A stretch of DNA of 64,000 bases, from positions 3,070,001 through 3,134,000 of the forward strand of contig NC_015496.1 of the NCBI RefSeq assembly GCF_000212355.1, in the 5' to 3' direction. Source of the DNA: Dokdonia sp. 4H-3-7-5 (GTDB lineage Bacteria > Bacteroidota > Bacteroidia > Flavobacteriales > Flavobacteriaceae). The position numbers were made by a program, and so were the translations under genes. Below the pieces are notes generated by a model. It saw nothing but the letters and a program-made list of their open reading frames with translations, was not told where the DNA came from and made no database searches. This document shows, in pieces, positions 352 through 59,063 of this stretch (positions are counted from its first letter, which is position 1; every line of letters begins with the position of its first letter).

Positions 352-879
352 GTGAAAACAACAAACAACATACCGTCTAAAAGAGGTTTTAAAGTTCCTC
401 AAGATTATTTCGACACTAGTCGAGAAGTAATTCTTGATAATATCACTTTAGAAGCATCATTATCTAGCTCAAGTAATGAGCGCTATGATATCCCTGATGG
501 ATATTTTGAGAACTCTAAAAATGAAATACTTGCTACGCTTTCGCGAAAGCTAGAAGAAGAAAGCACACCAGTTCAAAAAACTGCTACTAAAGTAATATCT
601 CTTAAAAGTTATTATTATTCAATTGCGGGAGTTGCGGCTGCCCTCCTACTCTTAGTAAGTATTGTTTGGTCACAACTAGACACAACGGCGGGAATCGAGA
701 GTATTGCTATAGCAGAATATCTTGATGGCGAAGCAGGTGATCTTGAACAAATAGAATTTGCAGATTGGTTATCTGATGATGACATTGATGCGCTTCACAA
801 CGATATTGCCTTAGACCAATCAGTTATTATCGACTATCTAGATGATCGCACAGATAGCTACCACTTTTACTTAGATTAA
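352..879 (+). CDS. Membrane protein, putative anti-sigma partner of the upstream ECF sigma factor
   Basis: A 175-residue protein with a GTG start. The N-terminal ~85 residues contain two similar short motifs, KVPQDYFDTSREVIL and DIPDGYFENSKNEIL, each a 'P-x-x-YF' segment typical of flavobacterial proteins encoded beside ECF sigma factors. One transmembrane helix (about residues 90-107, IAGVAAALLLLVSIVW) is followed by an acidic, probably periplasmic tail of ~65 residues. The gene sits 36 bases after the sigma gene and 3 bases before the Spy-like gene, so the three are very likely co-transcribed. An anti-sigma role is inferred from topology and position; no zinc-binding ZAS motif is visible. 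A copy of the 14-bp palindrome lies at 537-550 and is read here as Leu-Ser-Arg-Lys. Confidence 0.7.
   Translation: MKTTNNIPSKRGFKVPQDYFDTSREVILDNITLEASLSSSSNERYDIPDGYFENSKNEILATLSRKLEEESTPVQKTATKVISLKSYYYSIAGVAAALLLLVSIVWSQLDTTAGIESIAIAEYLDGEAGDLEQIEFADWLSDDDIDALHNDIALDQSVIIDYLDDRTDSYHFYLD
537..550. repeat. 14-bp palindrome, copy 1
   Basis: Perfect GCTTTCGCGAAAGC inside the anti-sigma-like gene, in the frame read Leu-Ser-Arg-Lys. Confidence 0.95.
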
Positions 880-882
880 ATT

Positions 883-1350
883 ATGAGACTACTTATAACA
901 TTTATAGTTACCATCATGATCACTGCGACTGCAGTAGGTCAAGAGGAAGATAGAAATTCAAAAAAAGAAAGAATACAAGCACTTAAGGTTGCTTATATAA
1001 CAGAAAAGCTATCGCTTACTCCAGACCAAGCACAAGTGTTTTGGCCTATCTACAATACCTACGGTGAGCGCATGTCTGAGATCTATAGCAGAGAACGTAA
1101 AGTACTTAAGGAAACCAGAAATCAGTTTGATACTATGGATGAAAGCAGTGCAAAAAACACGCTAGATAACATTCAGTCTTTTGAGCAACAAAAACTTGAT
1201 GCTAGAAAAGAACTGTTTGTGAGTTTAAAAAATAAGCTCTCTTATAAAAAGACACTTATACTTCTCAAAGCCGAAGGAGATTTTAGACGTGATTTATTAC
1301 ACAAACTTCGTGGTGATAAAGATGGAAAGCGCGATCACAGAGAGCCATAA
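883..1350 (+). CDS. Spy/LTxxQ-like periplasmic protein, 'sensor of ECF-type sigma factor' family
   Basis: A 155-residue protein with a signal peptide (MRLLITFIVTIMITATAVGQ, cleavage near Gly19-Gln20) and then an almost wholly helical, highly charged region. The segment AYITEKLSLTPDQAQVFWPIYN is the LTxxQ-type motif of the Spy/CpxP periplasmic proteins, which bind unfolded proteins or sense envelope state. It starts 3 bases after the anti-sigma-like gene and closes the operon. Its stop is only 8 bases from the convergent stop of the BNR-repeat gene. A role as the periplasmic sensor that feeds back on the sigma factor is inferred from the context. Confidence 0.7.
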   Translation: MRLLITFIVTIMITATAVGQEEDRNSKKERIQALKVAYITEKLSLTPDQAQVFWPIYNTYGERMSEIYSRERKVLKETRNQFDTMDESSAKNTLDNIQSFEQQKLDARKELFVSLKNKLSYKKTLILLKAEGDFRRDLLHKLRGDKDGKRDHREP

Positions 1351-1358
1351 TAACTCTC

Positions 1359-2471: not shown

Positions 2472-2540
2472 TGTCAAAATTTTAGTAAAAATAGCACTAT
2501 TACCTAAAGAACCAATACCTTTACACCCTCAAAATAAAGT

Positions 2541-3752
2541 ATGAAATTACACAGAAATTTAGTCTTTGCCGCAGTTGATGCATTAGGGATGATATTTAAT
2601 GACGGAGAACAAGCTGATAAGGTTTTAAGAAAGGTTCTCAAATTTGACAAAAGATGGGGATCCCGTGATCGCGGTTTCATTGCAGAGACAGTATACGATA
2701 TCGTGCGCTGGCAACGATTATACTCAGAAATTGCAGAAGTAAAAGCACCATATAGTAGACCTAATTTATTTAGGTTATTTGCTGTTTGGGCTACATTAAG
2801 AGGTATTGAAGTTCCAGACTGGAAACAAATGGAACCTATACCTACGCGTAGAATAAAAGGACGTTTTGATGAGCTTTCAAAAATCAGAAAATTCAAGGAG
2901 TCTATTCCAGACTGGATGGATGAAATGGGAGAGAAAGCTCTTGGTAAAAAATGGGCTGCAGAGCTTGCTGCTTTAAATACGCAGGCACAAGTAGTACTTA
3001 GAGCAAATACGCTAAAAACTACTCCTAAAGACTTGAGAAATACGCTTGCAGATCAAGACATTGACACCCGATTATTAGATGGGTATCCTGATGCTATAGA
3101 GCTTGTAGAACGTAAGAATGTATTTACAACAGAAGCTTTCAAAAATGGCTTCTTTGAAGTACAAGATGCCTCATCTCAAAAAGTGGCACGTATGCTTGAT
3201 GTACAACCAGGAATGCGCGTAGTAGATACTTGTGCAGGAGCTGGAGGAAAAACTTTACACTTAGCAGCCTTGATGGAAAATAAAGGTCAGATTATCGCCA
3301 TGGATATCTATGAAGGTAAACTTAAGGAACTTAAAAGAAGATCTAAGCGTGCTGGAGCGCATAATATTGAGACTAGAGAAATCACCTCAACAAAGATTTT
3401 TAAGAAACTCTACAATACAGCAGACCGTGTATTGATTGATGCACCATGTACTGGACTAGGAACTATTAAACGTAATCCTGATCTAAAATGGAAATTGCAG
3501 CCAGAATTTATAGACAAGGTCGTACAAAGACAAGCAGAATTACTAGAAAGCTATAGTAAAATCGTTAAGGAAGATGGTAAAATGCTTTATGCTACTTGTT
3601 CTATCTTACCTAGAGAGAATCAAGAGCAAGTGCAAGCCTTCCTAGCTACAGAACAAGGTCAGAAGTTTCAACTTGATAAAGAAGAAACAGTAAGCCCTGC
3701 AAAGACTGGTTACGACGGATTCTACATGGCATTGCTTTCGCGAAAGCAATAA
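2541..3752 (+). CDS. RsmB/NOP-family RNA (cytosine-5) methyltransferase
   Basis: A 403-residue protein. Residues 1-~130 look like the NusB-type RNA-binding domain of RsmB, and the rest is a Rossmann SAM-dependent methyltransferase. The SAM-binding motif is DTCAGAGGKTLHLAAL near residue 230. The two cysteines used by m5C RNA methyltransferases are both present: C303 in DAPCTGLGT and the nucleophile C353 in ATCSILPRENQEQ. The expected substrate is a cytosine in 16S rRNA; whether it matches E. coli C967 cannot be told here. The palindrome copy at 3734-3747 encodes the extreme C terminus (LSRKQ) and nearly touches the stop codon, so the last five residues may be non-essential. A bidirectional terminator follows. 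Confidence 0.88.
   Translation: MKLHRNLVFAAVDALGMIFNDGEQADKVLRKVLKFDKRWGSRDRGFIAETVYDIVRWQRLYSEIAEVKAPYSRPNLFRLFAVWATLRGIEVPDWKQMEPIPTRRIKGRFDELSKIRKFKESIPDWMDEMGEKALGKKWAAELAALNTQAQVVLRANTLKTTPKDLRNTLADQDIDTRLLDGYPDAIELVERKNVFTTEAFKNGFFEVQDASSQKVARMLDVQPGMRVVDTCAGAGGKTLHLAALMENKGQIIAMDIYEGKLKELKRRSKRAGAHNIETREITSTKIFKKLYNTADRVLIDAPCTGLGTIKRNPDLKWKLQPEFIDKVVQRQAELLESYSKIVKEDGKMLYATCSILPRENQEQVQAFLATEQGQKFQLDKEETVSPAKTGYDGFYMALLSRKQ
3734..3747. repeat. 14-bp palindrome, copy 2
   Basis: Perfect copy forming the last codons of the RsmB-like gene (LSRKQ), ending two bases before the stop codon. Confidence 0.95.
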
Positions 3753-3817
3753 AAAAACACCTCGCCACTTCTCTTATTTATTATAGAAGAGTTCTGAGAT
3801 TATACTTAAAAAAAAAG

Positions 3818-3843
3818 GCCTTATTATCGATTGATAATAAGGC
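3818..3843. terminator. Bidirectional intrinsic terminator between rsmB-like gene and T9SS protein
   Basis: A perfect 11-bp stem (3818-3828 with 3833-3843) and a 4-base loop, with an A-tract on the left and a T-tract on the right. It therefore works in both directions and separates two convergent genes. Confidence 0.9.
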
Positions 3844-3879
3844 TCTTTTTTTGTATATATCTTATGTAAGAATTAAAAT

Positions 3880-6876: not shown

Positions 6877-7050
6877 AATTTGGGGAGTTTAGTTTCTGTT
6901 TACTAAAGATAATACATTTTATTCCCCTTATCTTAATAAATGGTTAACAACTCTTTTAAAGAACATGACAAAGAGATATTATCCTACCTATCATATCAAT
7001 AAATATTGTAGTAAATTTACGTCCTTAAACAACGCAACAAAACCAATCGG

Positions 7051-10000
7051 ATGATCCACTTCTTTGGAAACCCTCAAGGCACTGTTTACGCAGTACAAAG
7101 CACACAAGCATTTTCACAAGACGATACCGCTAAGCTGGTATGGCTTTTTGGCAACTCTCAAAAAATTGAAGCGTCTCATATTGACGCTTTTTTTATTGGT
7201 CCAAGAGCAGCTATGATTACGCCTTGGAGTACTAATGCTGTAGAGATTACCCAGAATATGGGAATTTCAAATATTATAAGAATAGAGGAGTTTCACGCTT
7301 TCGCGAAAGCGAACTCTTCATCACAACAAGTTAACACGACTCCTTTTCCATCTATAGAAGATGCTACAGGCGTAGTTACAGAAAGTACTCTTGATTATGA
7401 TCCTATGATCTCTCAAGAGTACGCAGCTTTAAATCAAGATATTTTTACGGTTAACGTTACTCCAGAACCTATATTATCTATAGAGGATATTGCTGCATAT
7501 AATGAGCAAGAAGGTTTGTCGTTAAGCGATGAAGAGGTTGCTTACCTTGATGGTGTTGCTGCCAAAATAGGCAGACCACTTACAGACTCTGAAGTTTTTG
7601 GTTTTAGCCAAGTGAACTCTGAGCACTGTCGTCACAAGATTTTTAATGGAACCTTTGTGATTGATGGAGAAGAGATGCCTTCTTCCCTATTTAAGTTAAT
7701 AAAGGAAACTTCAAAAGTAACTCCAGGTACTATTGTATCTGCATATAAAGATAATGTTGCATTTATAGAAGGACCTAGAGTAACACAATTTGCTCCAGAC
7801 ACTGCAGATAAGCCAGATTTCTATACAGAAAAAGACTTTGACTCTGTGATTTCTTTAAAAGCAGAAACGCATAACTTCCCAACTACCGTAGAGCCTTTTA
7901 ACGGAGCTGCTACCGGTTCTGGTGGAGAAATACGCGATAGACTTGCTGGAGGTAAAGGATCACTTCCTCTTGCTGGAACAGCTGTGTATATGACTCCGTA
8001 TTCTAGATTAGAGCAAGAACGCCCGTGGGAACATGGCATGGATGCCCGCAAATGGCTTTATCAAAACCCAATTGACCTCCTTATTAAAGCTTCAAATGGA
8101 GCATCAGATTTTGGAAACAAATTTGGGCAGCCTTTAATCGTAGGTTCAGTTCTTACTTTTGAGCATCAAGAAGACGGTCAGCGTCTTGGGTATGACAAGG
8201 TAATTATGCAAGCTGGTGGTATTGGTTACGGAAAGCGTGAGCAAGCGCTTAAAGACACTCCGCAAGATGGTGACAAAATTGTAATCTTAGGAGGTGAAAA
8301 TTATAGAATAGGAATGGGTGGTGCTGCTGTTTCAAGTGCAGATACTGGAGCTTTTGACTCTGGAATAGAACTTAATGCGGTACAACGTTCTAACCCAGAA
8401 ATGCAAAAACGTGCTGCAAATGCAGTGCGAGGAATGGTAGAAAGTGATGTAAACCCAATCGTATCTATACACGATCACGGTGCTGGAGGACATCTTAACT
8501 GTCTTTCTGAACTTGTAGAAGATACTGGAGGTCGTATCGATCTTGATAAATTACCCGTAGGTGACCCTACCCTATCCGCAAAAGAAATTATAGGAAACGA
8601 GTCGCAAGAACGTATGGGTCTCGTAATAGGTGAAAAAGATATCGATATGCTACAGCGCATCGCAGATCGTGAGCGCTCACCTATGTATCAAGTAGGCGAT
8701 GTTACAAATGATCACCGTTTTACTTTTAAAAGTAAAACAACAGGCTTGAGCCCTATGGACTTGCATCTAGATGATATGTTTGGGAGCTCTCCAAAAACAA
8801 TAATGACAGACAAGACGGTCGCTCGTGATTATAAAAACCCAGAGTATCAACTGGAGCACTTCCACGATTATCTTGAGCAAGTATTGCAACTAGAAGCGGT
8901 TGCATGTAAAGATTGGCTTACTAATAAAGTAGACCGCTGCGTAGGTGGTCGCGTTGCAAAACAACAATGTGTAGGATCCTTACAAATACCTCTTAACAAT
9001 GTGGGTGTAATGGCACTTGATTATAAGAGTACAGAAGGAATTGCTACTTCTATAGGACACTCACCAGTTTCTGGTCTTATTGATCCTGTAGCGGGAAGTA
9101 AAAACAGTATTGCGGAGGCTCTTACAAACATTGTGTGGGCACCTCTTAAAGATGGATTACAATCTGTAAGCCTCTCAGCAAACTGGATGTGGCCCTGTAA
9201 GAATGAAGGAGAAGATGCTCGTTTGTATAAGGCTGTAGAGGCAATATCTGCAATGGCAATTAACCTTGGGATTAACGTCCCTACAGGTAAGGATAGTCTC
9301 TCAATGAAACAAAAATATCCAGATGGAGATGTAATTGCTCCTGGAACGGTCGTTATTTCGGCAGCTGGAAATTGTAATGATATTAATAAAGTAGTAGAGC
9401 CAGTTCTTCAAAAAGACGGTGGTGCGATTTATTATATCAACATGTCTGGAGATACCCATAAACTAGGAGGATCTAGTTTTGCACAAGTATGTCATGCTAT
9501 AGGTAACGAAGCGCCAAGTGTTGTGAGTGATACCGCTTTCGCGAAAGCGTTTAACGCCATTCAACAACTCATAAAAGACGACAAAATTCAAGCTGGTCAC
9601 GATGTTGCGAGTGGCGGACTTATCACTACCCTACTTGAACTTTGCTTTGCAGATGTAAACTTAGGTGCAAACTTAGATTTGACTCCACTTGGAGAACAAG
9701 ACCTTATCAAGGTGCTTTTTTCTGAAAATGCAGGATTAGTTTTCCAAGCAGATGCATCTGTTGAAAAAATACTTACTGATAATGGTGTTACATTCTCAAA
9801 AATAGGAACGTTAACAACCACTGCAGAGCTAACAATCAAAAATAGTGGCGTAGAATTAGGTCTTAACATTGCATCACTTCGTGATACTTGGTTTAAGACT
9901 TCTTATTTACTAGATAATAAGCAAACGGCAAATGGTCTTGCAAAGGATCGTTTTGACAATTATAAAGTACAACCACTACAATATACTTTTCCTGGAAACT

Positions 10001-10788
10001 TTACAGGAAAAAAGCCAGTATTAGATACTAGCAAAGCTAGACCTAAAGCGGCAATCTTACGTGAAAAAGGAAGTAACTCTGAGCGCGAGATGGCAAATGC
10101 GATGTACCTCGCTGGTTTTGACGTAAAGGATGTACACATGACAGATTTAATATCTGGACGTGAAACGCTAGAAGATATTCAGTTTCTTGGAGCTGTAGGA
10201 GGGTTTTCTAATAGTGATGTATTAGGATCTGCCAAAGGATGGGCTGGTGCCATAAAATATAATGAGAAGGCAAATAAAGCGATTGAGAACTTTTTTGCAC
10301 GTGAAGACACACTCTCTGTTGGAATCTGTAATGGTGCCCAATTATTCTTAGAACTTGATCTTATAAACCCAGATCACGAAAGGTTAGCTAAATTAAAACA
10401 CAATAAAAGCCGCAAGCACGAGAGTAACTTTACTTCTGTGAAGATTGAAGAAAACAACAGTGTGATGCTTTCTACGCTTGCTGGAACAACCTTAGGTGTA
10501 TGGATTTCTCATGGTGAAGGTAGATTTGATTTACCTATGGGAGCAAATGCATATGATATTGTAGCGACCTATGGTTATGAAGGATACCCTGCAAACCCTA
10601 ACGGGTCTGACTTTAATACAGCGATGATTTGTGATACTACAGGTCGTCACCTTGCAACAATGCCGCATATTGAGCGATCTACATTCCCATGGAACTGGGC
10701 GCACTACCCTGCTGGAAATAGTGATGAGGTGAGTCCTTGGGTTGAAGCATTTGTAAACGCAAGAAATTGGGTAGAGAAAAACTCATAA
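7051..10788 (+). CDS. purL: Phosphoribosylformylglycinamidine synthase (single-chain PurL)
   Basis: A 1245-residue cytoplasmic enzyme of purine synthesis that converts FGAR to FGAM using glutamine and ATP. It has the long single-chain architecture: an N-terminal PurS-like part, a linker, two AIRS-type halves ([42 protein letters not shown]) and a C-terminal class I glutaminase. The glutaminase nucleophile Cys lies in [13 protein letters not shown], and HGEGRF is also present. Length is close to the ~1295 residues of the E. coli enzyme. Two copies of the 14-bp palindrome lie inside the gene (7297-7310 and 9535-9548), both in the frame that adds Ala-Phe-Ala-Lys-Ala at residues 83-87 and 829-833. 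The gene is monocistronic with its own terminator. Confidence 0.97.
   Translation: [1245 protein letters not shown]
7297..7310. repeat. 14-bp palindrome, copy 3
   Basis: Perfect copy in purL, Ala-Phe-Ala-Lys-Ala frame, residues 83-87. Confidence 0.95.
9535..9548. repeat. 14-bp palindrome, copy 4
   Basis: Second perfect copy in purL, Ala-Phe-Ala-Lys-Ala frame, residues 829-833. Confidence 0.95.
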
Positions 10789-10989: not shown

Positions 10990-13377
10990 ATGCGCTTTAA
11001 AAAACTACCAATTATTGTTTGTATATTTTTCTGTTACGCTTTCGCGAAAGCGCAACAAGAAACCCCTCAATATAAACGTATAAAAGTATTTTTAAACCAA
11101 ACTCAAACGCTTGCACAATTAAACCTAACTGGTGTTGCTGCAGACCATGGTATACATAAAGAGGGAACTTTTATCATATCTGACTTTTCATTGCAAGAGC
11201 TAGAGAAAATTAGAAATGCAGGTTTTCAATACGAAACCATTGAAGAAGATATTCAAAAAGCCTATAAAGAACAATCAACACGATCCAGCACTGCCACTCG
11301 CAACGTAGCTTGTAGCTCCAGCGATGCTCTGACATATGAAACTCCTGCAAATTTTAATCTTGGATCTATGGGTGGCTACTTGACGTATCAAGAACTACTC
11401 GATGAACTTGATGACATGGCTGAGCAATATCCAGACTTAATAACTACGAGAGCTTCGATAAGTAACTTCCTTACGGAAGGACTTCCAGATGATGGTGTCA
11501 CGCCGTCCATAGGAGGAAATCCTATTTACTGGTTAAAAATAAGCGACAATCCTGAAAACGATGAAACTGAGCCAGAAGTATTATATACGTCTATACATCA
11601 CGCTAGGGAGCCTATGTCACTTATGCAACTGGTATATTATATGTGGTACTTGCTTGAAAATTATGATACTGATGAAGAGGTACAAGCTATTGTAAATAAT
11701 ACGGAGCTTTATTTTATACCTGTAATAAACCCTGATGGTTACTTATATAATGAGCTAACAGATCCTGATGGTGGTGGCCTATGGCGTAAGAATAGAAAAA
11801 ATGGAAATGGTGTTGATAATAATCGCAACTATGACTATCATATTAATGGTAATCCTAATGATGGTAGCTGGGGCGGTCCTGGATCTTCATCAAATACAAA
11901 TAATGAAACATATCACGGTACAGGCCCTTTCTCTGAAGTAGAGACTCAAGTAGTGAAGTGGTTTGTAGAGCAGCATGATTTTGTGATTGCTCTTAATAAT
12001 CATTCTTTTGGCGAGTTAGTTTATTATCCTTTTGGCTATGCAGATGTGGACACTCCAGACGATGATTTATTTCAAGGGATAGGCGATGCTCTTACCTCTA
12101 TAAATGGCTACAATGCATTTAATGATTTCCCATTTGCTGGAGACAGTGATGATTTTATGTACGGAACAGTGGGAACTCATGATAAAATTTTTGCTTTCAC
12201 CCCAGAGATAGGAACATCATTTTGGCCGCCTGCAAGCTCGATTATTAGCACTTCGCAAAACATGATGTTTCTCAATCTTACGGCCGCTCAAATAGCTGGT
12301 AATTATGGCAAACTAACCGAGACCTCACCTACTTTTACTGGTGAGTCTGCTGCTTTATCAACTTCTTTTGATTTAGAGAGACTGGCTGTAGAAAATTTAG
12401 GAGATTTTACTATTACCTTTTCTCCCGTATCTTCTAATATTATTGATCAAGGAGCGCCAATTACATTATCGAGTTTAGCACCCTTAGCGACACAATCTGG
12501 AAGTATAACCTATTCCCTATCTACAAGCGTAGAAGTGGGTGATGCTATTGAATTTGATTTAATTATAGACAATGGCTTTTTTGAAAAGGAGGTTCGCGTT
12601 AGTAAAATATACGGTAGTACAACAGAGATATTTTATGCAGATGGAAATTCGCTCGCAGATTTTGGATCTACAAGTTGGGGAACCACAAATGTAAGCTTTG
12701 TTTCCACTTCCTCTTCGATAACAGATTCGCCTTCTGGTAATTATAGTAACAATGCTAGTAATATCATTGAACTAACACAATCTTTAGACCTCACAGATGC
12801 TATTACAGCAACAGTAAGCTACCATGCAAGATGGAACATTGAAGATACATGGGATTATGTGCAATTTGAGATTTCTAAAGACGATGGTATCACCTGGGAA
12901 CCACAATGTGGTAATTTTACCACTATCGGAACAAATATTCAGCCTCAAGGTGAGCCTTTATACGACAGTATCCAGAATGATTGGATACTCGAAGAAATTA
13001 ATTTAAGTTATTATATAGGAGAAACAATTAGGGCAAGATTCCGTTTAGTTACAGATGGTGCCGTAACGAGAGATGGTTTTTACTTTGACGATTTATCTTT
13101 TTCTATACTCTCAGGAGAACAATTAACTGTAGATAATGAACAATTTAATAATGCTTTTGAAGTGTTTCCAAACCCAGTTTCAAATCAACTTAATATACGT
13201 ACATCACTAAGCTCGTATGAGACTAGTGTTTACAATATCCTAGGTCAAAATGTAACTCCAGCAGTCCAACAAACCGGAAACGCAAGCGTAGACTACGCTT
13301 ATTTACCTCAAGGAATGTACTTTTTAAAGCTTCAAACTTCAAAAAACAGTACTATTTTAAAAATTGTTAAAAATTAA
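10990..13377 (+). CDS. Secreted M14 zinc carboxypeptidase with T9SS sorting domain
   Basis: A 795-residue exported metallopeptidase. The signal peptide is MRFKKLPIIVCIFFCYAFAKA, with likely cleavage before Gln22. The Ala-Phe-Ala-Lys-Ala at its end is encoded by a copy of the 14-bp palindrome (11038-11051). The M14 catalytic domain shows the zinc ligands in HHAREPM (~residue 203), the substrate-binding NNRNYDYH, HSFGELVYYPFGY, and the catalytic Glu in FTPEIGTSFWP (~404). Beta-sandwich regions follow, and a T9SS type A sorting domain (FEVFPNPVSNQLNI to TILKIVKN) ends the protein. It probably removes C-terminal residues from extracellular peptides during nutrient scavenging. It is a stand-alone gene. 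Confidence 0.92.
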   Translation: MRFKKLPIIVCIFFCYAFAKAQQETPQYKRIKVFLNQTQTLAQLNLTGVAADHGIHKEGTFIISDFSLQELEKIRNAGFQYETIEEDIQKAYKEQSTRSSTATRNVACSSSDALTYETPANFNLGSMGGYLTYQELLDELDDMAEQYPDLITTRASISNFLTEGLPDDGVTPSIGGNPIYWLKISDNPENDETEPEVLYTSIHHAREPMSLMQLVYYMWYLLENYDTDEEVQAIVNNTELYFIPVINPDGYLYNELTDPDGGGLWRKNRKNGNGVDNNRNYDYHINGNPNDGSWGGPGSSSNTNNETYHGTGPFSEVETQVVKWFVEQHDFVIALNNHSFGELVYYPFGYADVDTPDDDLFQGIGDALTSINGYNAFNDFPFAGDSDDFMYGTVGTHDKIFAFTPEIGTSFWPPASSIISTSQNMMFLNLTAAQIAGNYGKLTETSPTFTGESAALSTSFDLERLAVENLGDFTITFSPVSSNIIDQGAPITLSSLAPLATQSGSITYSLSTSVEVGDAIEFDLIIDNGFFEKEVRVSKIYGSTTEIFYADGNSLADFGSTSWGTTNVSFVSTSSSITDSPSGNYSNNASNIIELTQSLDLTDAITATVSYHARWNIEDTWDYVQFEISKDDGITWEPQCGNFTTIGTNIQPQGEPLYDSIQNDWILEEINLSYYIGETIRARFRLVTDGAVTRDGFYFDDLSFSILSGEQLTVDNEQFNNAFEVFPNPVSNQLNIRTSLSSYETSVYNILGQNVTPAVQQTGNASVDYAYLPQGMYFLKLQTSKNSTILKIVKN
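11038..11051. repeat. 14-bp palindrome, copy 5
   Basis: Perfect copy encoding the end of the signal peptide of the M14 carboxypeptidase. Confidence 0.95.
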
Positions 13378-15823: not shown

Positions 15824-15837
15824 GCTTTCGCGAAAGC
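15824..15837. repeat. 14-bp palindrome, copy 6
   Basis: Perfect intergenic copy, 39 bases after the ICMT-like gene; symmetry extends to TTACGC...GCGTAA. Confidence 0.95.
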
Positions 15838-15943: not shown

Positions 15944-18775
15944 ATGATAGATCACGAAGAACGTATTGAAGTTTACGGTGCTCGCGCCCACAATCTAAAG
16001 AATATAGACGTAATGATACCGAGAGAAAAACTCGTTGTAATTACAGGGTTATCTGGAAGTGGAAAGAGTTCGCTAGCCTTTGATACTATCTATGCAGAAG
16101 GACAACGTCGTTACATTGAAACGTTTTCTGCATATGCACGACAGTTTCTAGGAGGATTAGAACGTCCAGATGTAGATCAAATTCTAGGACTTTCTCCGGT
16201 TATTGCTATCGAGCAAAAAACCACTAGTAAAAGTCCGCGATCTACGGTGGGAACCATTACAGAAATTTACGATTTTTTACGTCTCCTTTATGCAAGAGCG
16301 GCAGATGCCTACTCTTACAATACTGGCGAAAAGATGGTAAGTTACAATGATGAACAAATACAGAAGCTCATTACAGAGAGTTTTGAAGGTAAAAGGATTA
16401 ACATCCTCGCTCCTACTATACGCTCACGTAAGGGCCATTATAGAGAGTTATTTGAACAAATTGCAAAACAGGGTTTTGTTAAGGTTCGTGTAGATGGTGA
16501 GGTTAAGGATATTGTAAAAGGATTAAAAGTAGACCGTTACAAAGTACACGATATTGAGATTGTAGTAGATCGCATGCTCGTAAAAAAAGGTGATGACGAT
16601 GATAAACGCCTTCGCGAAAGCATAAATACTGCGATGTATCATGGTGATGATGTGTTAATGGTACTTAATCAAGACACGAAGGAAGTACGTTATTTTAGCC
16701 GAAACTTGATGTGTCCTTCTACAGGAATCTCATATCCTAACCCAGAACCAAATAACTTCTCCTTTAACTCACCTAAAGGCGCTTGCCCTAACTGTAATGG
16801 CATAGGTGAGCTATATAAAGTAAATCCTAAAAAGATAGTCCCAGACCCAAAACTATCTATTAACGCTGGCGGACTAGATCCTCATGGACCTAAGAAGAAC
16901 AACTGGATCTTTAAACAACTACAACTTATTGCAGAGAGGTTTGACTTTAAACTAACAGACCCTATTGAAAAGATTTCTGAAGAAGCTATGGATTTTATAT
17001 TCTATGGCGGAAATGAAAAGTTTTCTGTTTCTTCAAAGCAATTAGGAGTTACTAGAGATTATAAAATTGATTTTGAAGGTGTAGCAAATTTTATAGAAAA
17101 TACCTTTAATGATAGCGAGTCTACATCACTTGTACGCTGGGCAAAAGGATATATGGATAAGGTAGCTTGTCCCGTATGTGAGGGGTCAAGATTGCGCAAA
17201 GAATCACTCTACTTTAAGGTTGATGATCTTAGTATTGCAGACCTTGCTTCTATGGATATTCTTGAGCTACAAGAATGGTTTAAGACAGTAGAAAAACGAC
17301 TCTCTAGCAAGCAATTACAGATTGCATCTGAGATAATTAAAGAAATTAATTCAAGAATACAATTCCTTGTAGATGTAGGACTTACATATCTTAATCTAAA
17401 CAGAAGCTCAAAGTCTTTATCTGGAGGAGAGGCACAACGTATCAGGCTCGCTACACAGATAGGATCGCAACTTGTAGGCGTATTATACATACTAGATGAA
17501 CCTAGTATTGGACTACATCAACGTGATAATGAAAAGCTTATAAATTCGCTTATTTCTTTGCGTGATATAGGCAACTCTGTCATCGTTGTAGAGCATGATA
17601 AAGATATGATTGAGCGTGCAGATCACGTAATTGATATAGGACCAAGAGCAGGACGTTTTGGAGGAGAAATAATAAGTGAAGGAACTCCAGAAGATTTAAT
17701 AAAGCACCATACACTTACAGCACAATACTTGAATGGTGAAAAAGAAATTACCATCCCAAAACAACGTCGAAAAGGAAATGGTAAATTTATAGAGCTTAAA
17801 GGAGCTACAGGAAACAATCTAAAAAATGTTTCTATTAAGATCCCATTAGGTAAAATGATTGCGGTTACAGGAGTTTCTGGTAGTGGTAAGTCTACTCTGA
17901 TTAATGAAACGCTCTACCCTATCATGAATGCTCATTATTTTAATGGTGTAAAAGTACCTATGCCTTACAAGAGCATCAAAGGACTTGACGAATGTGACAA
18001 AGTAATAGATATAAATCAAACACCTATAGGGCGTACACCTAGGTCTAATCCTGCAACCTACACTAAAGCCTTTGACGAAATTAGAAGCCTTTTTGCAAAG
18101 ACTCCTGAAGCACTTATAAGAGGATATAAACCTGGACGTTTTAGCTTTAATGTCAAAGGTGGTCGCTGCGAGACGTGTAAAGGTGGTGGTTTAAGAGTGA
18201 TTGAGATGAACTTCTTACCAGATGTATATGTTGAGTGTGAGACATGTCAAGGGAAGCGTTTTAATAGAGAAACCCTAGAAATACGATATAAAGGAAAATC
18301 AATTTCTGATGTTCTTGAGATGACTATGACCGAGGCAGCAGACTTTTTTGAACCTATTCCTAAAATATATCGCAAACTTAAAACGATAAAAGACGTAGGA
18401 TTAGGCTATATTACGCTAGGACAACAGAGCACAACCTTATCTGGTGGTGAGGCGCAGCGTATTAAACTAGCATCAGAACTTAGTAAGAGAGATACCGGGA
18501 ATACCTTTTACATACTAGATGAGCCTACCACAGGACTTCATTTTGAGGATATTAGAGTATTAATGGATGTGCTCAACCGTCTTGTAGACAAAGGAAATAC
18601 CATTCTCATTATCGAGCATAATCTAGATGTTGTAAAAACGGCAGATCACATCATAGATATAGGATATGAAGGTGGAAAAGGTGGTGGCGAGGTAGTTGCC
18701 ATTGGTACTCCGGAACAAATTATTAAAAAAAATAAAGGATATACAGCCCAGTTTCTAAAGAAGGAAATGGCATAA
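15944..18775 (+). CDS. uvrA: Excinuclease ABC subunit A
   Basis: A 943-residue damage-recognition ATPase of nucleotide excision repair, acting with UvrB on DNA. Both ABC modules are complete: Walker [15 protein letters not shown] and [14 protein letters not shown]; signatures [12 protein letters not shown] and [12 protein letters not shown]; Walker [12 protein letters not shown] and [11 protein letters not shown]. Zinc-finger cysteines are seen in [29 protein letters not shown] and [10 protein letters not shown]. The first finger is atypical: where many UvrA proteins have CxxC the sequence here is MCPSTG, so one ligand is Thr. I believe this is usual in Bacteroidota. The gene is followed after 47 bases by a LOG-family gene on the same strand. 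Confidence 0.97.
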
Positions 18776-19521: not shown

Positions 19522-19535
19522 GCTTTCGCGAAAGC
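19522..19535. repeat. 14-bp palindrome, copy 7
   Basis: Perfect intergenic copy, starting 10 bases after the LOG-family stop. No T-tract follows, so it is not a standard terminator. Confidence 0.95.
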
Positions 19536-25097: not shown

Positions 25098-25111
25098 GCT
25101 TTCGCGAAAGC
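25098..25111. repeat. 14-bp palindrome, copy 8
   Basis: Perfect intergenic copy placed just after an independent terminator between convergent genes. Confidence 0.95.
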
Positions 25112-28543: not shown

Positions 28544-29293
28544 ATGCGATACGGTATTTGCCAGCTTAGTATAGTCCCTATGCGCGCCGAACCTTCGGAT
28601 CCTAGCGAACTTGTAAATCAAGTTCTCTATGGTGAACATTTTAAGGTTGTGGAGCAACGCAAGCAATGGAGCCGTATTAAACTTTCTCATGATAAATATG
28701 AGGGATGGATTGATAATAAGCAATACATTGAGATTAGTGAGGATGAGTACGCTTTCGCGAAAGCGCAACAAACCACACTCACCACAGATCCTGTACAATT
28801 TATTACAACAGAACATAATCAACTACTTACGGTGGTATTAGGTTCTTCTGTTGAAAATATTGGGCTTCTTAAAGATTCTTACGATGGCAATAGTCACACT
28901 GGAAAAACATCCAGAGCCCAACTTGTGGAAACAGCACTACTCTATCTCAAAACTCCATATTTATGGGGCGGAAGAACAACCTTTGGTATAGATTGTAGTG
29001 GTTTTACTCAAATGGTGTATCGACTTAACGGCTTTGACCTTAAAAGGGATGCTTCACAACAAGCAACACAAGGTGAGGCATTAAGTTTTATAGAGGAAAG
29101 TGAACCTGGGGATCTAGCATTTTTTGATAATGCAGAGGGACTAATTACGCACGTAGGTATTATTATGGAAGATAACTATATCATACATGCTCACGGAGAA
29201 GTGAGAATAGATCGCTTAGATCATTCTGGTATTTACAATGTGCATAAAGGTGTACACACTCATAAATTAAGGGTGATTAAGAAAATCATATAG
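28544..29293 (+). CDS. NlpC/P60 (C40) peptidase with N-terminal SH3-like region, no signal peptide
   Basis: A 249-residue protein. The C-terminal ~130 residues are an NlpC/P60 cysteine peptidase: catalytic Cys in WGGRTTFGIDCSGFTQMV, His in LITHVGIIM and the third polar site in IIHAHGEVRID. Residues 1-~60 resemble a bacterial SH3-like domain (YGEHFKVVEQRKQWSRIKL; EGWIDNKQYIEI). No signal peptide or membrane segment is seen, which fits the cytoplasmic YkfC-type gamma-D-glutamyl-diamino acid endopeptidases of muropeptide recycling better than exported hydrolases. The palindrome at 28751-28764 adds Ala-Phe-Ala-Lys-Ala at residues 70-74, in the linker after the SH3 part. Confidence 0.85.
   Translation: MRYGICQLSIVPMRAEPSDPSELVNQVLYGEHFKVVEQRKQWSRIKLSHDKYEGWIDNKQYIEISEDEYAFAKAQQTTLTTDPVQFITTEHNQLLTVVLGSSVENIGLLKDSYDGNSHTGKTSRAQLVETALLYLKTPYLWGGRTTFGIDCSGFTQMVYRLNGFDLKRDASQQATQGEALSFIEESEPGDLAFFDNAEGLITHVGIIMEDNYIIHAHGEVRIDRLDHSGIYNVHKGVHTHKLRVIKKII
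28751..28764. repeat. 14-bp palindrome, copy 9
   Basis: Perfect copy in the NlpC/P60 gene, Ala-Phe-Ala-Lys-Ala frame, in the interdomain linker. Confidence 0.95.
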
Positions 29294-33313: not shown

Positions 33314-33327
33314 GCTTTCGCGAAAGC
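33314..33327. repeat. 14-bp palindrome, copy 10
   Basis: Perfect copy between the divergent gyrA and clpC genes, where no terminator is expected. Confidence 0.95.
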
Positions 33328-37932: not shown

Positions 37933-37946
37933 GCTTTCGCGAAAGC
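37933..37946. repeat. 14-bp palindrome, copy 11
   Basis: Perfect copy between the divergent SDR and phytase-like genes, 28 bases from the SDR start. Confidence 0.95.
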
Positions 37947-47694: not shown

Positions 47695-49053
47695 TTACTC
47701 TAAATTATACTTGTAACCAATTCCGATACTTGTTGCATTAGAGAAATCATTAATATAATCTGCTCCTAAGTAAAAATTGATAATTCCAAGAGTATTCGTC
47801 TTATAAGAAAACATAGCATGACTATATAGTGCCTTTTGTCTAGGTTTTATAGGTGAAGTGTATGTTCCTAGATTCTGAATATAAGATCCTTTAAAAGCAT
47901 AGTCAATCTTCCCTATTGATCCCGCTATACCTAGATGATGACCTATCATTCTGTTATTGCGTGGGGTTGTTGTATTACCAAAGGGATTAAGAAAGGGAAG
48001 TCCTATAATAGCTCCTTCATAAGTCCATCCTGATGGATATATTCCATTACTAAAGTAATTGTCACCACCGCTTTGTTGGTTAAGTCCTTCGGTTGGCCTA
48101 GGTGCTCCACTTTGTGATATCGTTTGTATATATTCGTATAAGATTGATTTAATCAACTTACTTCCTTCAGGTAGATAGTTAATTCCCCATACACCATCAG
48201 GAAAATTATTTAATTCTCGTCCAGATCGATCCTCAAACAATGATTGATGATAGAGCGTTAATGTCCCACTGTAGAGCTTTCTTGCATAGTTAATATTATA
48301 ACTACCTAAATGATTGCCTAATGCATTTATAGCTTCGTTGGGGTTGTCTATATCTCCTCCATTTGCTCCAATAAATATTCTACCGAATGCTTGAAAGTCA
48401 CTAGGAAGCTTAGTTCCGTCAGAAAGCGTACCTCCCCATTGAACATAATGTCTTAGAGCTACTGAAAGCGAATTCACTTCATTTATAGTCCAATTAGCTC
48501 TAATCATCTTATAATGAATCTGCGAATTTTTCGTACTGCGATCATCATTCAAATTATAATGGGCTAAGGCTGCATCTAAAGAAAATTTCTCTGACAATTT
48601 AATTGATTTCCTGTTGGAAATTATGATTCCAGGAAGTGATCGTGCATTTCCAGTTTGTAAAATGTTATTATTTATAGTAGAAAGATTGTATGGCTCTGAA
48701 GTAAGCTGTTTTGCACCTGCCGTTACTAAAATCCATTTGTTTTTATACTCCAGATACAAATCACTTCTCCTTATATTATTATCAAATCCGTCAGATATAT
48801 AAGCACCTCCACCTAAAGCGAGCATATGAGTATTTGATATGCTATAGTCCGCTTTCGCGAAAGCGGAAGCCCCATAACTACTTGACTCACTTAAGAAACC
48901 TTGACTATTGGTAAAACTCCAAAAAGGAAGTCTATCACTAGATAAAAAACCTATAGAGCCAAGAGAACCAGTAAAATTTAATCTCTCTTGCGCAGTGATA
49001 CTTGAAGTGAAAATAAAAATATAAACTAATACACTAATCAACTTTTTTATCAT
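47695..49053 (-). CDS. Capsule assembly Wzi family outer-membrane protein
   Basis: A 452-residue protein with a signal peptide (MIKKLISVLVYIFIFTSSITAQ) and a beta-barrel-like pattern ending in the amphipathic strand TSIGIGYKYNLE. Wzi proteins sit in the outer membrane and help hold capsular polysaccharide on the surface. Assignment rests on the overall pattern (NRKSIKLSEKFSLDAALAHY; MIRANWTINEVNSLSVALRHYVQWGG) and on its place beside the Wza/Wzc-type genes. A palindrome at 48851-48864 adds Ala-Phe-Ala-Lys-Ala at residues 64-68. It is divergent from the phosphatase gene across 46 bases. Confidence 0.75.
   Translation of the reverse strand: MIKKLISVLVYIFIFTSSITAQERLNFTGSLGSIGFLSSDRLPFWSFTNSQGFLSESSSYGASAFAKADYSISNTHMLALGGGAYISDGFDNNIRRSDLYLEYKNKWILVTAGAKQLTSEPYNLSTINNNILQTGNARSLPGIIISNRKSIKLSEKFSLDAALAHYNLNDDRSTKNSQIHYKMIRANWTINEVNSLSVALRHYVQWGGTLSDGTKLPSDFQAFGRIFIGANGGDIDNPNEAINALGNHLGSYNINYARKLYSGTLTLYHQSLFEDRSGRELNNFPDGVWGINYLPEGSKLIKSILYEYIQTISQSGAPRPTEGLNQQSGGDNYFSNGIYPSGWTYEGAIIGLPFLNPFGNTTTPRNNRMIGHHLGIAGSIGKIDYAFKGSYIQNLGTYTSPIKPRQKALYSHAMFSYKTNTLGIINFYLGADYINDFSNATSIGIGYKYNLE
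48851..48864. repeat. 14-bp palindrome, copy 12
   Basis: Perfect copy in the Wzi-like gene, Ala-Phe-Ala-Lys-Ala frame, residues 64-68. Confidence 0.95.
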
Positions 49054-49099
49054 AGAATGAAGATACTAGTTTCTTAAATATTTAAAGTATTTTTGACTC

Positions 49100-52188: not shown

Positions 52189-52206
52189 ATAAACTTAGGA
52201 TAGGAA

Positions 52207-54989: not shown

Positions 54990-55001
54990 TTCTTTTATGA
55001 A

Positions 55002-56144
55002 TTATTTGAATAAATCAAAGATAGCATTTTCAATTCGGTCCCTGTCTGCATCAGTCAGATTTGATCCTGATGGCAAACAAAGCCCCTCATTAAATAACTC
55101 CTCTGCAACATTATTACCGTAATAAGGTGCATCCTTAAAAATAGGCTGCATATGCATTGGTTTCCAAAGTGGTCTTGATTCTATATCTGCTTTCGCGAAA
55201 GCAATACGCATATCTTCTCTGGTAATACCGTTTGTCTTTTCTGGATCAACAATAATTGCAGAAAGCCAGTGATTACTATGATAATCAGAGTTAGGTTCTG
55301 TAAAAACTTTTACTCCGCTTATATTTTTAAAAACTCTTTCATAAAATGTATGCATACCACGTCTAAGGTTGATGTGCTTATCCAGCACTTCCATTTGACC
55401 ACGGCCTATCCCTGCAGTTATATTGCTCATTCTATAATTATACCCAACAGCTGTGTGTTCATAATGTGCGGCCTCATCTCTTGCTTGAGTTGCTAGAAAA
55501 ACAGTGTAGTCCTTATCTTTCTTAGAATTACAAACCATCGCACCTCCTACACTTGTGGTGATAATTTTATTTCCATTGAACGAGAGAATACCAAAGCGAC
55601 CAAATGTTCCACATTTCTGACCTTTGAAAGTTGACCCAAGAGCCTCGGCACTATCTTCTACTATAGGTATAGAAAACCTATCTGCAATAGCGTGAACTTC
55701 ATCAATTTTATAAGGCATCCCATACAGATGTACTGCCACAATTGCCTTTGGTGTCTTACCCAAGCGTATTCTATCCTCTATTGCTTTTTCTAAATACTTT
55801 GGACAAATATTCCAAGTGTCTGGCTCACTATCTACTAAAATAGGTGTAGCCCCTTGATATATAATAGGATTAATACTACCACAAAATGTAAAAGATTGAC
55901 ATATTACTTCATCACCCTGCGTAACTCCACATTGAATAAGAGCAAGGTGAATTGCAGCTGTCCCAGAACTAAGAGCCGCAACAAGTGAATCTTCTCCTTG
56001 ATATTTTTCAAGATCGCTTTCAAAACCATTCACGTTTGCTCCCAAAGGGGCAACCCAATTAGTGTCAAATGCTTCTTTAACATAATTTTGTTCAGTACCG
56101 CCCATATGAGGAGATGATAACCAGATTTTATTGGAACTTGACAT
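55002..56144 (-). CDS. DegT/DnrJ-family PLP aminotransferase (PglE-like)
   Basis: A 380-residue cytoplasmic aminotransferase that turns a 4-keto sugar nucleotide into the 4-amino sugar. The PLP-binding Lys is K193 in SFNGNKIITTSVGGAMV. ALSSGTAAIHLAL and VEDSAEALGSTFKGQKCG are typical cofactor and substrate regions. Its position 3 bases from a sugar-transferase gene and 12 bases upstream of the PglF-like gene supports a PglE-type role in the bacillosamine pathway. The palindrome at 55189-55202 is read as Ala-Phe-Ala-Lys-Ala at residues 315-319, inside the C-terminal domain. Confidence 0.9.
   Translation of the reverse strand: MSSSNKIWLSSPHMGGTEQNYVKEAFDTNWVAPLGANVNGFESDLEKYQGEDSLVAALSSGTAAIHLALIQCGVTQGDEVICQSFTFCGSINPIIYQGATPILVDSEPDTWNICPKYLEKAIEDRIRLGKTPKAIVAVHLYGMPYKIDEVHAIADRFSIPIVEDSAEALGSTFKGQKCGTFGRFGILSFNGNKIITTSVGGAMVCNSKKDKDYTVFLATQARDEAAHYEHTAVGYNYRMSNITAGIGRGQMEVLDKHINLRRGMHTFYERVFKNISGVKVFTEPNSDYHSNHWLSAIIVDPEKTNGITREDMRIAFAKADIESRPLWKPMHMQPIFKDAPYYGNNVAEELFNEGLCLPSGSNLTDADRDRIENAIFDLFK
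55189..55202. repeat. 14-bp palindrome, copy 13
   Basis: Perfect copy in the PglE-like aminotransferase gene, Ala-Phe-Ala-Lys-Ala frame. Confidence 0.95.
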
Positions 56145-56147
56145 TGT

Positions 56148-56699: not shown

Positions 56700-57285
56700 T
56701 TTCTTTATATTTTATTATATGACCAGGGTTACCCACCACTACAGCATAATCTGGAACATCTTTTATAATAACTGCACCGGCTCCAATTGTGCACCACTTG
56801 CCTATTTTTATACCGGGAATAACTACAGCTCCAGCTCCAATATGAGTTCCTACATCTACGCTTACTCCACCACTTAAAGTAGCATTAGGCGAGATATGCA
56901 AAAAGTCTTTGAGAATACAATCATGTTCCACAATAGCACCAGTATTAATAATACAATGGTTTCCAATAGAAATGGATTCATTAACAACGGCGTTAGGCAT
57001 TATAACAGTACCTAACCCAATTTCATATTGTAAAGAAACAGTCGCCTTGCTATGTATTATAGCTTTGTGCCATTGATTTTTATATCTCTCTGCAAGTTTC
57101 TTACGAATACTATTATCTCCTATACCTATGATTATTTTATCAAAATCTTGAATCTTACATATAGGCAACCCTAGATAGAAATCTTTTTTATAGTTATCAT
57201 CTATAAAACCTTCCACAACAATACCATTATTAATTGCTATGGCATTTACTACCTTACCGTGACCACTTGCTCCAAAAATTTTCAT
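56692..57285 (-). CDS. PglD/NeuD-like sugar O/N-acetyltransferase
   Basis: A 197-residue trimeric left-handed beta-helix acetyltransferase. The N-terminal nucleotide-binding part (MKIFGASGHGKVVNAIA) is followed by hexapeptide repeats, from GLGTVIMPNAVVN to IGAGAVIIKDVPDYAVVVGNP, and the acceptor His in VEHDCIL is present. PglD adds an acetyl group to the UDP-4-amino sugar to give UDP-diNAcBac; the flanking PglC-, PglE- and PglF-like genes make that the best assignment. Its ATG overlaps the stop of the PglC-like gene as TAATG. Confidence 0.9.
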   Translation of the reverse strand: MKIFGASGHGKVVNAIAINNGIVVEGFIDDNYKKDFYLGLPICKIQDFDKIIIGIGDNSIRKKLAERYKNQWHKAIIHSKATVSLQYEIGLGTVIMPNAVVNESISIGNHCIINTGAIVEHDCILKDFLHISPNATLSGGVSVDVGTHIGAGAVVIPGIKIGKWCTIGAGAVIIKDVPDYAVVVGNPGHIIKYKEID

Positions 57286-57887
57286 TATCCTTTAAATCTA
57301 GTTGTTGTAGCTTCTCCCTCTTGCGATATCCCTTCAGAAATAAAGACTTTTTTAATAGTCATTAGTAAAATTTTTATATCAAATAAAAAACTTTGATTAT
57401 TTACATACCAGACGTCTAACTCAAATTTTCTTTCCCAACTTATAGCATTGCGTCCATTAACTTGAGCCCATCCAGATATGCCGGGCTTAACAAGGCCTCG
57501 CTTACGTTGCTCTTGAGAATAAAGCTCAACATACTCTGGCAGTAATGGTCTAGGCCCTATAAAACTCATATCACCCTTAAGAACATTTAATAATTGTGGC
57601 AACTCATCTAGCGATGTTTTTCTTATAAACTTACCCACTGGAGTAAGCCGCACAGCATCTGGTAATAAATTACCAAATCTATCACGTTTATCATTCATAG
57701 ATCTAAACTTTATGATTCTAAAAATAATATCGTCTTTACCCGTTCTCAATTGTGTATAAAAGGGTTTTCCGCCATTTGCTATTGTTAATAGGAAAGTGAT
57801 TAATAAAATAATGGGGGCAATGACTATCAATCCTATAAAAGCACAGCTTATATCAATAAGTGGTTTGAGAACATTTTTATACCACAT
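57285..57887 (-). CDS. PglC-like phosphoglycosyl transferase (initiating enzyme)
   Basis: A 200-residue monotopic enzyme close to Campylobacter PglC in length and in sequence as I remember it: the N-terminal re-entrant helix (LIDISCAFIGLIVIAPIILLI), the catalytic TSLDELPQLLNVLKGDMSF, then IGPRPLLPEY, GISGWAQVNGRNAISW and the C-terminal GISQEGEATTTRFKG. PglC transfers phospho-diNAcBac to undecaprenyl phosphate at the membrane and so starts the glycan. The adjacent PglD-like gene strengthens the assignment. Confidence 0.92.
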   Translation of the reverse strand: MWYKNVLKPLIDISCAFIGLIVIAPIILLITFLLTIANGGKPFYTQLRTGKDDIIFRIIKFRSMNDKRDRFGNLLPDAVRLTPVGKFIRKTSLDELPQLLNVLKGDMSFIGPRPLLPEYVELYSQEQRKRGLVKPGISGWAQVNGRNAISWERKFELDVWYVNNQSFLFDIKILLMTIKKVFISEGISQEGEATTTRFKG

Positions 57888-57890
57888 ATA

Positions 57891-59063
57891 TTATTTTTTT
57901 TGAGCCATTAAGCCATTTAATAATTCCCTGTACTCTTCTAGCAATGCTTGCCATATCTCTCTTCTTTCATAACTACCAGTGATGACGCTTCTCGCATTTG
58001 CCTTAGTACTATTATAAAGTTCTTTATCTTCTATAAGTTTACGCATTGCTATTTCGAGTGCGGAACTACTTTTGACTGGAACAATAAACCCGTTGTAATT
58101 GTCTACTACAATCTCATTACATCCATTAATATCAGAAACTATTGCAGGTAATCCCATAGCACCTGCTTGTAATACCACATTAGGAAATCCCTCTCTGTAT
58201 GACGGAAATGTTAACGCTTTCGCGAAAGCAAAATAAGGTCTCACATCATCAACATAGCCAGTTGTGTAAATTTTATTATGCGTCTTAATTATTTCTTGTG
58301 TAGAAGGCAAAAGAGGATCTAGCTCTTCTTCTAATGGACCAACAAGAAGTAGTGAGGTTTCTGGATATTTTTGTTGAACAGTTACAAATGCTTTTACCAG
58401 TTCATTTACACCTTTATCTCCCACAAGCCTACCTACCAGTATAAATGTAAAATCAGTCTGAGAAATACTTAGCTCCTCTGCTACATCTACATTGTTACTT
58501 GATTCATAATCTGGAGAAAAGTATGTAGTATCAATACCGTTTGAGGAGCCTTTCCCTATCACTTTAAGCTTAGTGTTCTTTGTGAATTTTAAATCTTCTA
58601 TAATAGATTTTAAGCCTTGTGCATTAGGATACACTTTTGTGGCGCAACTATAAGTAAGCTTTTCAACTACGTCTAGTAACTTTCGCTTACCACCAGTCGC
58701 TTCAAGTAACGGGAGACCCGCCACCGTATGTAATCGTAATGGGACTCCAGCAAGTCTCGCTGCAAGCATACCTACAATACCTGCCTTAGGAGTATGTGTG
58801 TGTACAATTGCTGGCTTTTCTCTTTTTAAAAACTTGTAAAGTATATATAAAGCTTTAAGGTCTTTTAAAGGAGTAATTTTTCTTGTTAAAGGAAGAAAAA
58901 AAAACGGCACCCCTTGCTTGCTTGCTACTCTTTTAAGCTCCTCCTCTTGTGATGAAACAGCTGTGACCTCGTAGTGCTCTTTCATAAAAGAAAGTTGTCC
59001 CTCTAAAAGCTTGTCTAAAGAAATAGGAACCGTTGTTATTCTTATTAATTTTTTATTGTTCAA
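57891..59063 (-). CDS. GT4-type glycosyltransferase
   Basis: A 390-residue cytoplasmic glycosyltransferase of the GT-B fold. The N-terminal acceptor half contains HTHTPKAGIVGMLAARLAG. The C-terminal donor half has FILVGRLVGDKGVNEL and the nucleotide-binding FPSYREGFPNVVLQAGAMGLPAIVSD (E-x7-E). It is 3 bases before the PglC-like gene and could add the second sugar, as PglA does, but donor and acceptor are not readable. The palindrome at 58216-58229 is read as Ala-Phe-Ala-Lys-Ala at residues 279-283, just before the FPSYREG motif. Confidence 0.9.
   Translation of the reverse strand: MNNKKLIRITTVPISLDKLLEGQLSFMKEHYEVTAVSSQEEELKRVASKQGVPFFFLPLTRKITPLKDLKALYILYKFLKREKPAIVHTHTPKAGIVGMLAARLAGVPLRLHTVAGLPLLEATGGKRKLLDVVEKLTYSCATKVYPNAQGLKSIIEDLKFTKNTKLKVIGKGSSNGIDTTYFSPDYESSNNVDVAEELSISQTDFTFILVGRLVGDKGVNELVKAFVTVQQKYPETSLLLVGPLEEELDPLLPSTQEIIKTHNKIYTTGYVDDVRPYFAFAKALTFPSYREGFPNVVLQAGAMGLPAIVSDINGCNEIVVDNYNGFIVPVKSSSALEIAMRKLIEDKELYNSTKANARSVITGSYERREIWQALLEEYRELLNGLMAQKK
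58216..58229. repeat. 14-bp palindrome, copy 14
   Basis: Perfect copy in the GT4 glycosyltransferase gene, Ala-Phe-Ala-Lys-Ala frame. It is the last copy; none follows in 58.3-64 kb. Confidence 0.95.

Follow-up and report, generated by a model that had tools for sequence, protein, structure and literature searches.

A polar 12-mer, mostly doubled into a palindrome, as a candidate self-recognition signal in the genomes of Dokdonia and Nonlabens

A 14-bp perfect palindrome, GCTTTCGCGAAAGC, recurs along a 64,000-nucleotide stretch of the genome of Dokdonia sp. 4H-3-7-5 (bases 3070001-3134000 of a single-contig genome of 3,389,993 bp, G000, the whole of this stretch being referred to below as the window). 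What emerges from its analysis is that the real unit of the repeat is an oriented 12-mer, TTTCGCGNAAGC, usually then G.AA, which stands for the most part as two overlapping copies in opposite orientation; in other words, the palindromic form reported in the first-pass annotation of the window is genuine, but it is not itself the unit. By its likeness to known systems, we tentatively take the repeat to be a polar signal for self-recognition, akin to DNA uptake sequences. The sample used below comprises the window and 60 further stretches of 20 kb, in all 1.264 Mb or 37% of the genome, with a G+C content of 37.3%, in keeping with the earlier estimate of about 37%. Genes were called with a crude longest-open-reading-frame (ORF) script, on which all assignments to coding or intergenic DNA rest.

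All 14 exact copies of GCTTTCGCGAAAGC first claimed for the window are present, and shuffled windows average 0.12 matches with up to two mismatches allowed. Nor are the copies limited to the window, since the whole genome holds 757 of them, as against none of a reversed control pattern. The sites are spread at about 1 per 4 kb, or some 220 per Mb, and no trend in their density is visible along the chromosome, where no formal test was applied. The sample itself contains 274 copies, the next most abundant palindromic 14-mer reaching 6, so that neither of the two results named beforehand as refuting the observation was obtained. Most copies are extended, as had been stated, with a C preceding the core and a G following it (9 of 14 in the window, 182 of 274 in the sample). 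Moreover, each of the 18 Dokdonia genomes searched contains between 369 and 905 copies.

The evidence for the 12-mer as the unit comes from the forms that depart from the palindrome. The 382 copies of TTCGCGAA in the sample extend in 377 cases to TTTCGCGAAA, and these 377 cores have GC on both sides in 274 instances, on one side in 102 and on neither side in only one. An iterated matrix search arrived at (T)TTTCGCGNAAGCG.AA, a motif with an orientation, and at 183 sites that are not palindromic beside the 274 that are. One-mismatch forms of TTTCGCGAAAGC outside the cores number 83, as compared with a mean of 2.4 and a maximum of 8 among 60 control 12-mers matched in composition and number of CpGs, and 41 of these 83 have the form TTTCGCG[TCG]AAGC. 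With two mismatches the excess is small (89 vs 52, with 3 of the 60 controls reaching 89), and because forms with three to five mismatches also lie somewhat over the controls (857 vs 598, for example), part of the near-match excess is a matter of general composition. The matrix and mismatch results together therefore identify the palindrome as two opposite copies of the 12-mer that overlap by 10 bp.

Counts of TTTCGCGNAAGC on the forward and reverse strands are near equal throughout the 18 Dokdonia genomes (925/939 in the own genome, 1019/1020 in G001 and 1040/1041 in G003, the widest gap being 629/655 in G017), and single sites make up 9-19% of the oriented sites in the 13 complete Dokdonia genomes, with 19% in the own genome. 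Around the sites the composition is skewed over some 20-25 bp, C being scarce on the 5' side and G on the 3' side, and this skew is present at intergenic sites, in each coding frame, in Nonlabens and in other Dokdonia. The left flank shows no complementarity to the right one beyond what composition gives (p 0.80), and at 5-8 bp it shows somewhat less, such that a longer hairpin is not under selection, and an extended hairpin as the functional form was rejected on these grounds.

The sites in the window are given here with their setting, the strand of the ORF being in brackets.

537..550, palindromic site GCTTTCGCGAAAGC, inside ORF 352-879 (+); one core substitution in G006
3734..3747, palindromic site, inside ORF 2541-3752 (+), close to its 3' end
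7297..7310, palindromic site, inside ORF 7051-10788 (+)
9535..9548, palindromic site, inside ORF 7051-10788 (+); the aligned place in G001 is diverged and without the site
11038..11051, palindromic site, inside ORF 10990-13377 (+), 48 nt after the ORF start
15824..15837, palindromic site, intergenic, between tandem genes
16608..16621, degenerate copy GCCTTCGCGAAAGC with one mismatch, readable as one oriented site CTTCGCGAAAGC (two sites of this form, not necessarily including this one, were counted in the sample)
19522..19535, palindromic site, intergenic, between tandem genes
25098..25111, palindromic site, intergenic, between convergent genes; one substitution in G004
28751..28764, palindromic site, inside ORF 28544-29293 (+)
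33314..33327, palindromic site, intergenic, between divergent genes
37933..37946, palindromic site, intergenic, between divergent genes
48851..48864, palindromic site, inside ORF 47695-49053 (-)
55189..55202, palindromic site, inside ORF 55002-56144 (-); differs in G006 and G004
58216..58229, palindromic site, inside ORF 57891-59063 (-)

The mix of coding and intergenic positions that had been described is thus seen in the window, with 9 of the 14 copies inside ORFs and 5 between genes. Across the sample, 108 of the 274 sites fall within the 8.7% of bases that are non-coding, at about 0.99 per kb as against 0.14 per kb in ORFs, which is an approximately 7-fold higher density. The intergenic sites lie between tandem (53), divergent (31) and convergent (22) genes, with 2 at stretch ends, and a role as promoter or terminator was rejected, these gaps being used without clear preference. 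Half-sites have no consistent orientation with respect to genes, a further ground for this rejection, though with degenerate sites included 67 are oriented against the gene strand and 43 with it. Within ORFs the sites stand mostly in the frame AFAKA (105 of 166), and 37 of the 166 occur in the first 120 nt, a region holding 12% of coding bases, where they are often found at apparent signal-peptide ends (...AFAKAQ).

The spacing of the sites is more even than their placement between genes and ORFs would give. Only 34 of 316 core spacings are shorter than 1 kb, as compared with 96 +/- 7 when the cores are moved at random among positions of the same class, coding or intergenic, and in G003 the corresponding figures are 2 of 111 observed and 28 expected. 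There is, moreover, a rule of orientation. Perfect half-sites that neighbour each other without a palindrome between them are disposed in the sample as LR 17, RL 12, LL 1 and RR 4, and it is chiefly on these (29 alternating, 5 same) that the alternation rests. For neighbouring singles of the exact form TTTCGCG.AAGC in the own sample, 46 of 57 pairs alternate and 11 are the same. All seven pairs of neighbouring singles in G003 alternate (permutation P 0.011), as do all seven in five other genome sets together (G001 4, G004 1, G006 1, G207 1, Nonlabens 0), although some homologous sites may enter the counts of several genomes. Over all 183 matrix sites the alternation is weaker but clear, with 24 same-orientation neighbours against 41.6 expected (P 0.0004), while variant singles other than TTTCGCGAAAGC, taken alone, do not alternate (10 same, 9 alternating). 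An expectation-maximisation fit of orientation gave only a modest excess, the gain being 222 as against 155-176 for shuffled pairs. Where two singles of the own sample lie within 500 bp of each other, their GC ends face outward in 10 of 11 cases (LR 10, RL 1, LL 0, RR 0), a bias that belongs to this one genome in that such close pairs were not found in the other genome sets. The 183 single sites have no bias with respect to replication direction (98 vs 85, p 0.38). Most simply read, the two orientations are each subject to a separate demand for one site every few kilobases. Half-sites also look regionally clustered in the own genome: some 20 kb stretches, for instance L147, L170, L177 and L179, contain mostly alternating half-sites, whereas the window contains palindromes only.

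The site is also strongly conserved. In alignments of a 104 kb region of the own genome with G006, G004 and G001, the 14 bp are kept exactly at 16 of 20, 15 of 17 and 7 of 8 aligned sites, respectively, the proportions for random 14-mers being 0.41, 0.21 and 0.05, while the flanks of the sites have about average or lower identity in the same alignments. The DNA that does not align with G006 contains 2 sites in 32 kb, as against 20 in the 72 kb that does (p 0.016). Ten orthologous rows are not conserved: four have 1-3 substitutions, two differ by about 24 bp and four are too diverged to call, and in none of the ten, within that limit, is there a clean gap spanning the whole site. Each of the 24-bp differences lies within the site as part of a longer inverted repeat, once in G004 and once in the own genome. 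The own-genome case (L175, 7530-7600) and the one place in G004 have the longer inverted repeat CGCTTCCCGAAGTGAATTCGG... where the other species has a plain site; this inverted repeat recurs in the sample once as a close copy and once more loosely (L165). Among the 13 complete Dokdonia genomes, the number of sites is not significantly related to genome size (rho 0.40, p 0.18) and their density falls with it (rho -0.70, p 0.008).

Genome counts show a dispersed, clade-wide signal, in keeping with the earlier comparison with HIP1 or uptake sequences. Copies occur in 80 of the 397 genomes drawn from the family, only 6 of which are rich (408-857 copies), the others having 0-19, and the site-rich genera are 3 of the 237 drawn, namely Dokdonia (g1), Nonlabens (g11) and a third represented by one genome (g191). 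An order-wide search of 395 genomes with TTTCGCGAAAGC gave at most 7 matches per strand in the genomes of the 15 other families. No other iterated palindrome was found in 20 kb from each of 13 site-poor genomes of 12 genera, a survey in which G027 and G258 served as site-rich controls and from which five genomes with only 1.2-2.5 kb were omitted; candidate repeats in three of the surveyed genomes were rejected as single or gene-family copies. A stretch of 20 kb from the third site-rich genus (G207, stretch L218) holds five copies of a repeat that includes CAACACATAACG.

Several site-poor genomes have, among the matches listed, their few copies in clusters. In an Aquimarina stretch (L049, 1-8000), two copies lie 933 bp apart in an apparent metal-resistance island whose genes, judged by eye, encode a TolC-like protein, a multicopper oxidase, an AraC protein with a metal-binding domain and a P-type ATPase, and pairs with the same 933-bp spacing are also among the matches listed for the site-poor G095, G104, G118 and G231. 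Such pairs have possibly spread horizontally from a site-rich donor of the Dokdonia/Nonlabens type. Some temperate-type phages carry sites as well. A scan of IMG/VR gave at least 120 stretches with the motif, and some of the contigs also carry phage genes (PHROGs), among them integrases (L272, L325), a phage transposase (L263), a portal and a major head protein (L305) and terminases (L339, L240); the viral loci having been selected by the motif, the density of sites on them is biased upward.

Starting from the sequence, orientation rule, spacing, conservation and distribution of the sites as directly observed, we infer a reader acting in uptake, its polarity and a drive as follows. A competence protein at the surface or in the periplasm would recognise the oriented TTTCGCGNAAGC(G.AA) together with its skewed flanks, and transport of DNA would start from the site in one direction. 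The palindrome of overlapping opposite copies would then serve both directions, while a lone single site would serve one, and its neighbouring single tends to have the opposite orientation. Site-bearing DNA from the same species would be taken up and recombined preferentially, and the sites would be kept by this molecular drive, whether or not the cell benefits; since a second site nearby would add little, an even spacing would result.

Uptake signalling is the best match among the readings because the anatomy of the sites resembles that of the uptake signal sequences (USS) of Pasteurellaceae and the DNA uptake sequences (DUS) of Neisseriaceae in oriented core and flanks, copy number, spacing, non-coding preference, near-matches, opposite pairs and conservation. 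These known sequences have an oriented core of 9-12 bp to which the flanks contribute and are present in about 1000-2000 copies. Significantly even spacing has been reported for them (citing Karlin), the same author later considering them less even than compaction would require, and their non-coding copies are above expectation, about 10% are inverted repeats and near-matches are over-represented (PMC1939737). Opposite pairs are reported to overlap (PMC7811141), and the sequences to be highly conserved in permissive core regions, with a bias to the core genome (PMC2397512). The Dokdonia signal differs from USS and DUS in that its sites are mostly perfect palindromes, that its singles mostly alternate, that it is found also on some temperate-phage contigs and that its hosts are Bacteroidota, an uptake role being proposed for it by analogy. 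Natural transformation occurs in Riemerella, where the DUF5689 family belongs to the competence operon (PMC8459023), and R. columbina reportedly prefers its own DNA in uptake (PMC7965970). The own genome has two DUF5689 matches, at 993625-994392 and, more weakly, at 3113351-3113887, of which the latter corresponds to 43351-43887 (-) of the window, within a long ORF (41527-46173).

Several points weigh against an uptake role. The depletion of sites in unaligned DNA is not significant for G004 (5 vs 17, p 0.28) or G001 (14 vs 8, p 0.39), and the motif stands on some temperate-phage contigs, whereas DUS are reported to be missing from recently acquired genes (PMC2397512). An alternating-orientation rule is not described for uptake sequences in the consulted parts of the published accounts. 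No reader gene was found; an autoregulated reader gene beside clustered sites was considered and rejected, as the close pairs adjoin unrelated genes (translations judged by eye). DUF5689, for its part, does not explain the restriction of the sites because it is present in site-rich and site-poor genomes alike, that is, in 23 of 25 genomes including 11 of 13 site-poor ones, and its tree is uninformative; 10 of the 23 loci, which gave no ORF in the orientation required, were left out of it, and that of G353 was in the wrong frame.

The orientation rule suggests a reader that is itself polar, which fits an uptake signal or a signal like Chi, and suits a symmetric chromosome-binding protein less well. 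In the Chi-like case, a helicase-nuclease of the AddAB/RecBCD type would read the oriented 12-mer while unwinding DNA and switch to producing a recombinogenic 3' strand, the palindrome being a two-way Chi and the singles acting in one direction each. Even spacing, the use of both orientations and the alternation of singles are what a polar signal for break processing would need on either side of a break; 5' of GCTTTCGCGAAA the strand is rich in GT and poor in C, which would suit the loading of RecA, and the signal resembles Chi in being oriented, chromosome-wide on both strands and of similar copy number, E. coli being reported to have 1008 Chi copies in about 4.64 Mb. Set against this, known Chi sites are 5-8 nt in length, shorter than the 12-14 nt of the present motif, and Chi is usually strand-biased, a bias for which the replication-direction counts above give no indication. 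The Dokdonia signal is also mostly doubled to a palindrome, and of the 237 genera drawn from the family only 3 are rich in it; it is absent or rare in nearly all the relatives searched, which presumably have the same enzymes. The matches listed from the literature include no paper on Chi in Bacteroidota. On balance a Chi-like function is less likely than one in uptake, but it is the main rival reading.

Lower in probability, and on our assessment improbable, is a clade-specific protein of chromosome organisation or segregation, comparable to Noc, SlmA or MatP, that would bind the sites chromosome-wide. The sites bound by these proteins, like parS, are palindromes of 13-16 bp. In favour of this reading are a 14-bp palindrome with flanks that is evenly spaced, conserved and chromosome-wide, and the fact that the close single pairs (<500 bp) with their GC ends outward resemble a split palindrome. 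Such sites are, by comparison, far fewer in copy number than the roughly 1000 of Dokdonia, which are spread evenly without the trend in density along the chromosome that was looked for (no formal test), and which occur also on phage contigs. The asymmetric singles (19% in the own genome), being mostly alternating, suit an oriented reader better than a symmetric dimer; the nucleoid or segregation binding site put forward in the first-pass annotation, which would be blind to orientation, fits the alternating single sites poorly.

The same annotation had drawn a comparison with highly iterated palindromes (HIP) and raised a role linked to methylation, which we regard as very unlikely. On Elhai's model for cyanobacteria, a HIP-like palindrome is created or kept through a DNA methyltransferase and methyl-directed repair, and HIP1 is linked there to orphan methyltransferases. 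HIP1 and alternate HIPs are, like the Dokdonia site, highly iterated palindromes of coding and intergenic DNA that are limited to clades, and the present palindrome contains TCGCGA and CGCG. In the own genome, G006 and G258, however, none of the type II methyltransferase families PF01555, PF00145 and PF02086 has a match above the cut-off, Type I, III and IIG enzymes lying outside this search; the own genome has a single PF01555 match of 40 positions, below the cut-off. With 25 genomes searched, no one of the three families is present in all 12 of the site-rich ones. The HIP1-methylation model is therefore unsupported here and was rejected. The short TCGCGA is not itself enriched either, because the number outside the TTTCGCGAAA core (99 of 476 in the sample) is no more than composition gives (an estimated 150 or so). 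Furthermore, HIPs are 5-8 bp long and reach 1000-2000 per Mb, whereas the Dokdonia site has 14 bp, is about 4- to 9-fold rarer, and has oriented half-sites and long flanks.

That the many dispersed and identical short copies are remains of a mobile mini-element or of repetitive extragenic palindromes can hardly be maintained and was rejected, despite the two places where one species has part of a longer inverted repeat, some 24 bp, and the other a plain site, since the sequence in common ends at the composition skew of about 25 bp, none of the 10 non-conserved orthologous rows, four of them too diverged to call, contains a clean whole-site gap, left-right complementarity is not extended (p 0.80) and the sites repel each other in the spacing test.

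To return to the polar self-recognition signal, neither the 14-mer nor the 12-mer was found in the literature, of which the subscription journals were mostly uncovered, and no paper among those listed, as judged by title and the start of its abstract, describes the palindrome in Dokdonia or Nonlabens. To our knowledge, genome-wide self labels that bias uptake come from two proteobacterial families only. More tentatively still, Dokdonia and Nonlabens may possess a new genome-wide self label, in which a polar 12-mer is doubled into a palindrome readable from either side, the sites form a lattice specific to each orientation, the label is common to the resident temperate phages and its putative reader is a polar DNA machine; it would be the first such signal known in Bacteroidota. 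If this is true, it would be a third, unrelated and orientation-doubled system, and would show the repeated origin of such labels. That singles alternate is a form of evidence for polarity that can be searched for in the genomes with known uptake sequences, and DNA exchange in marine Bacteroidota would become testable, with a practical handle for their transformation.

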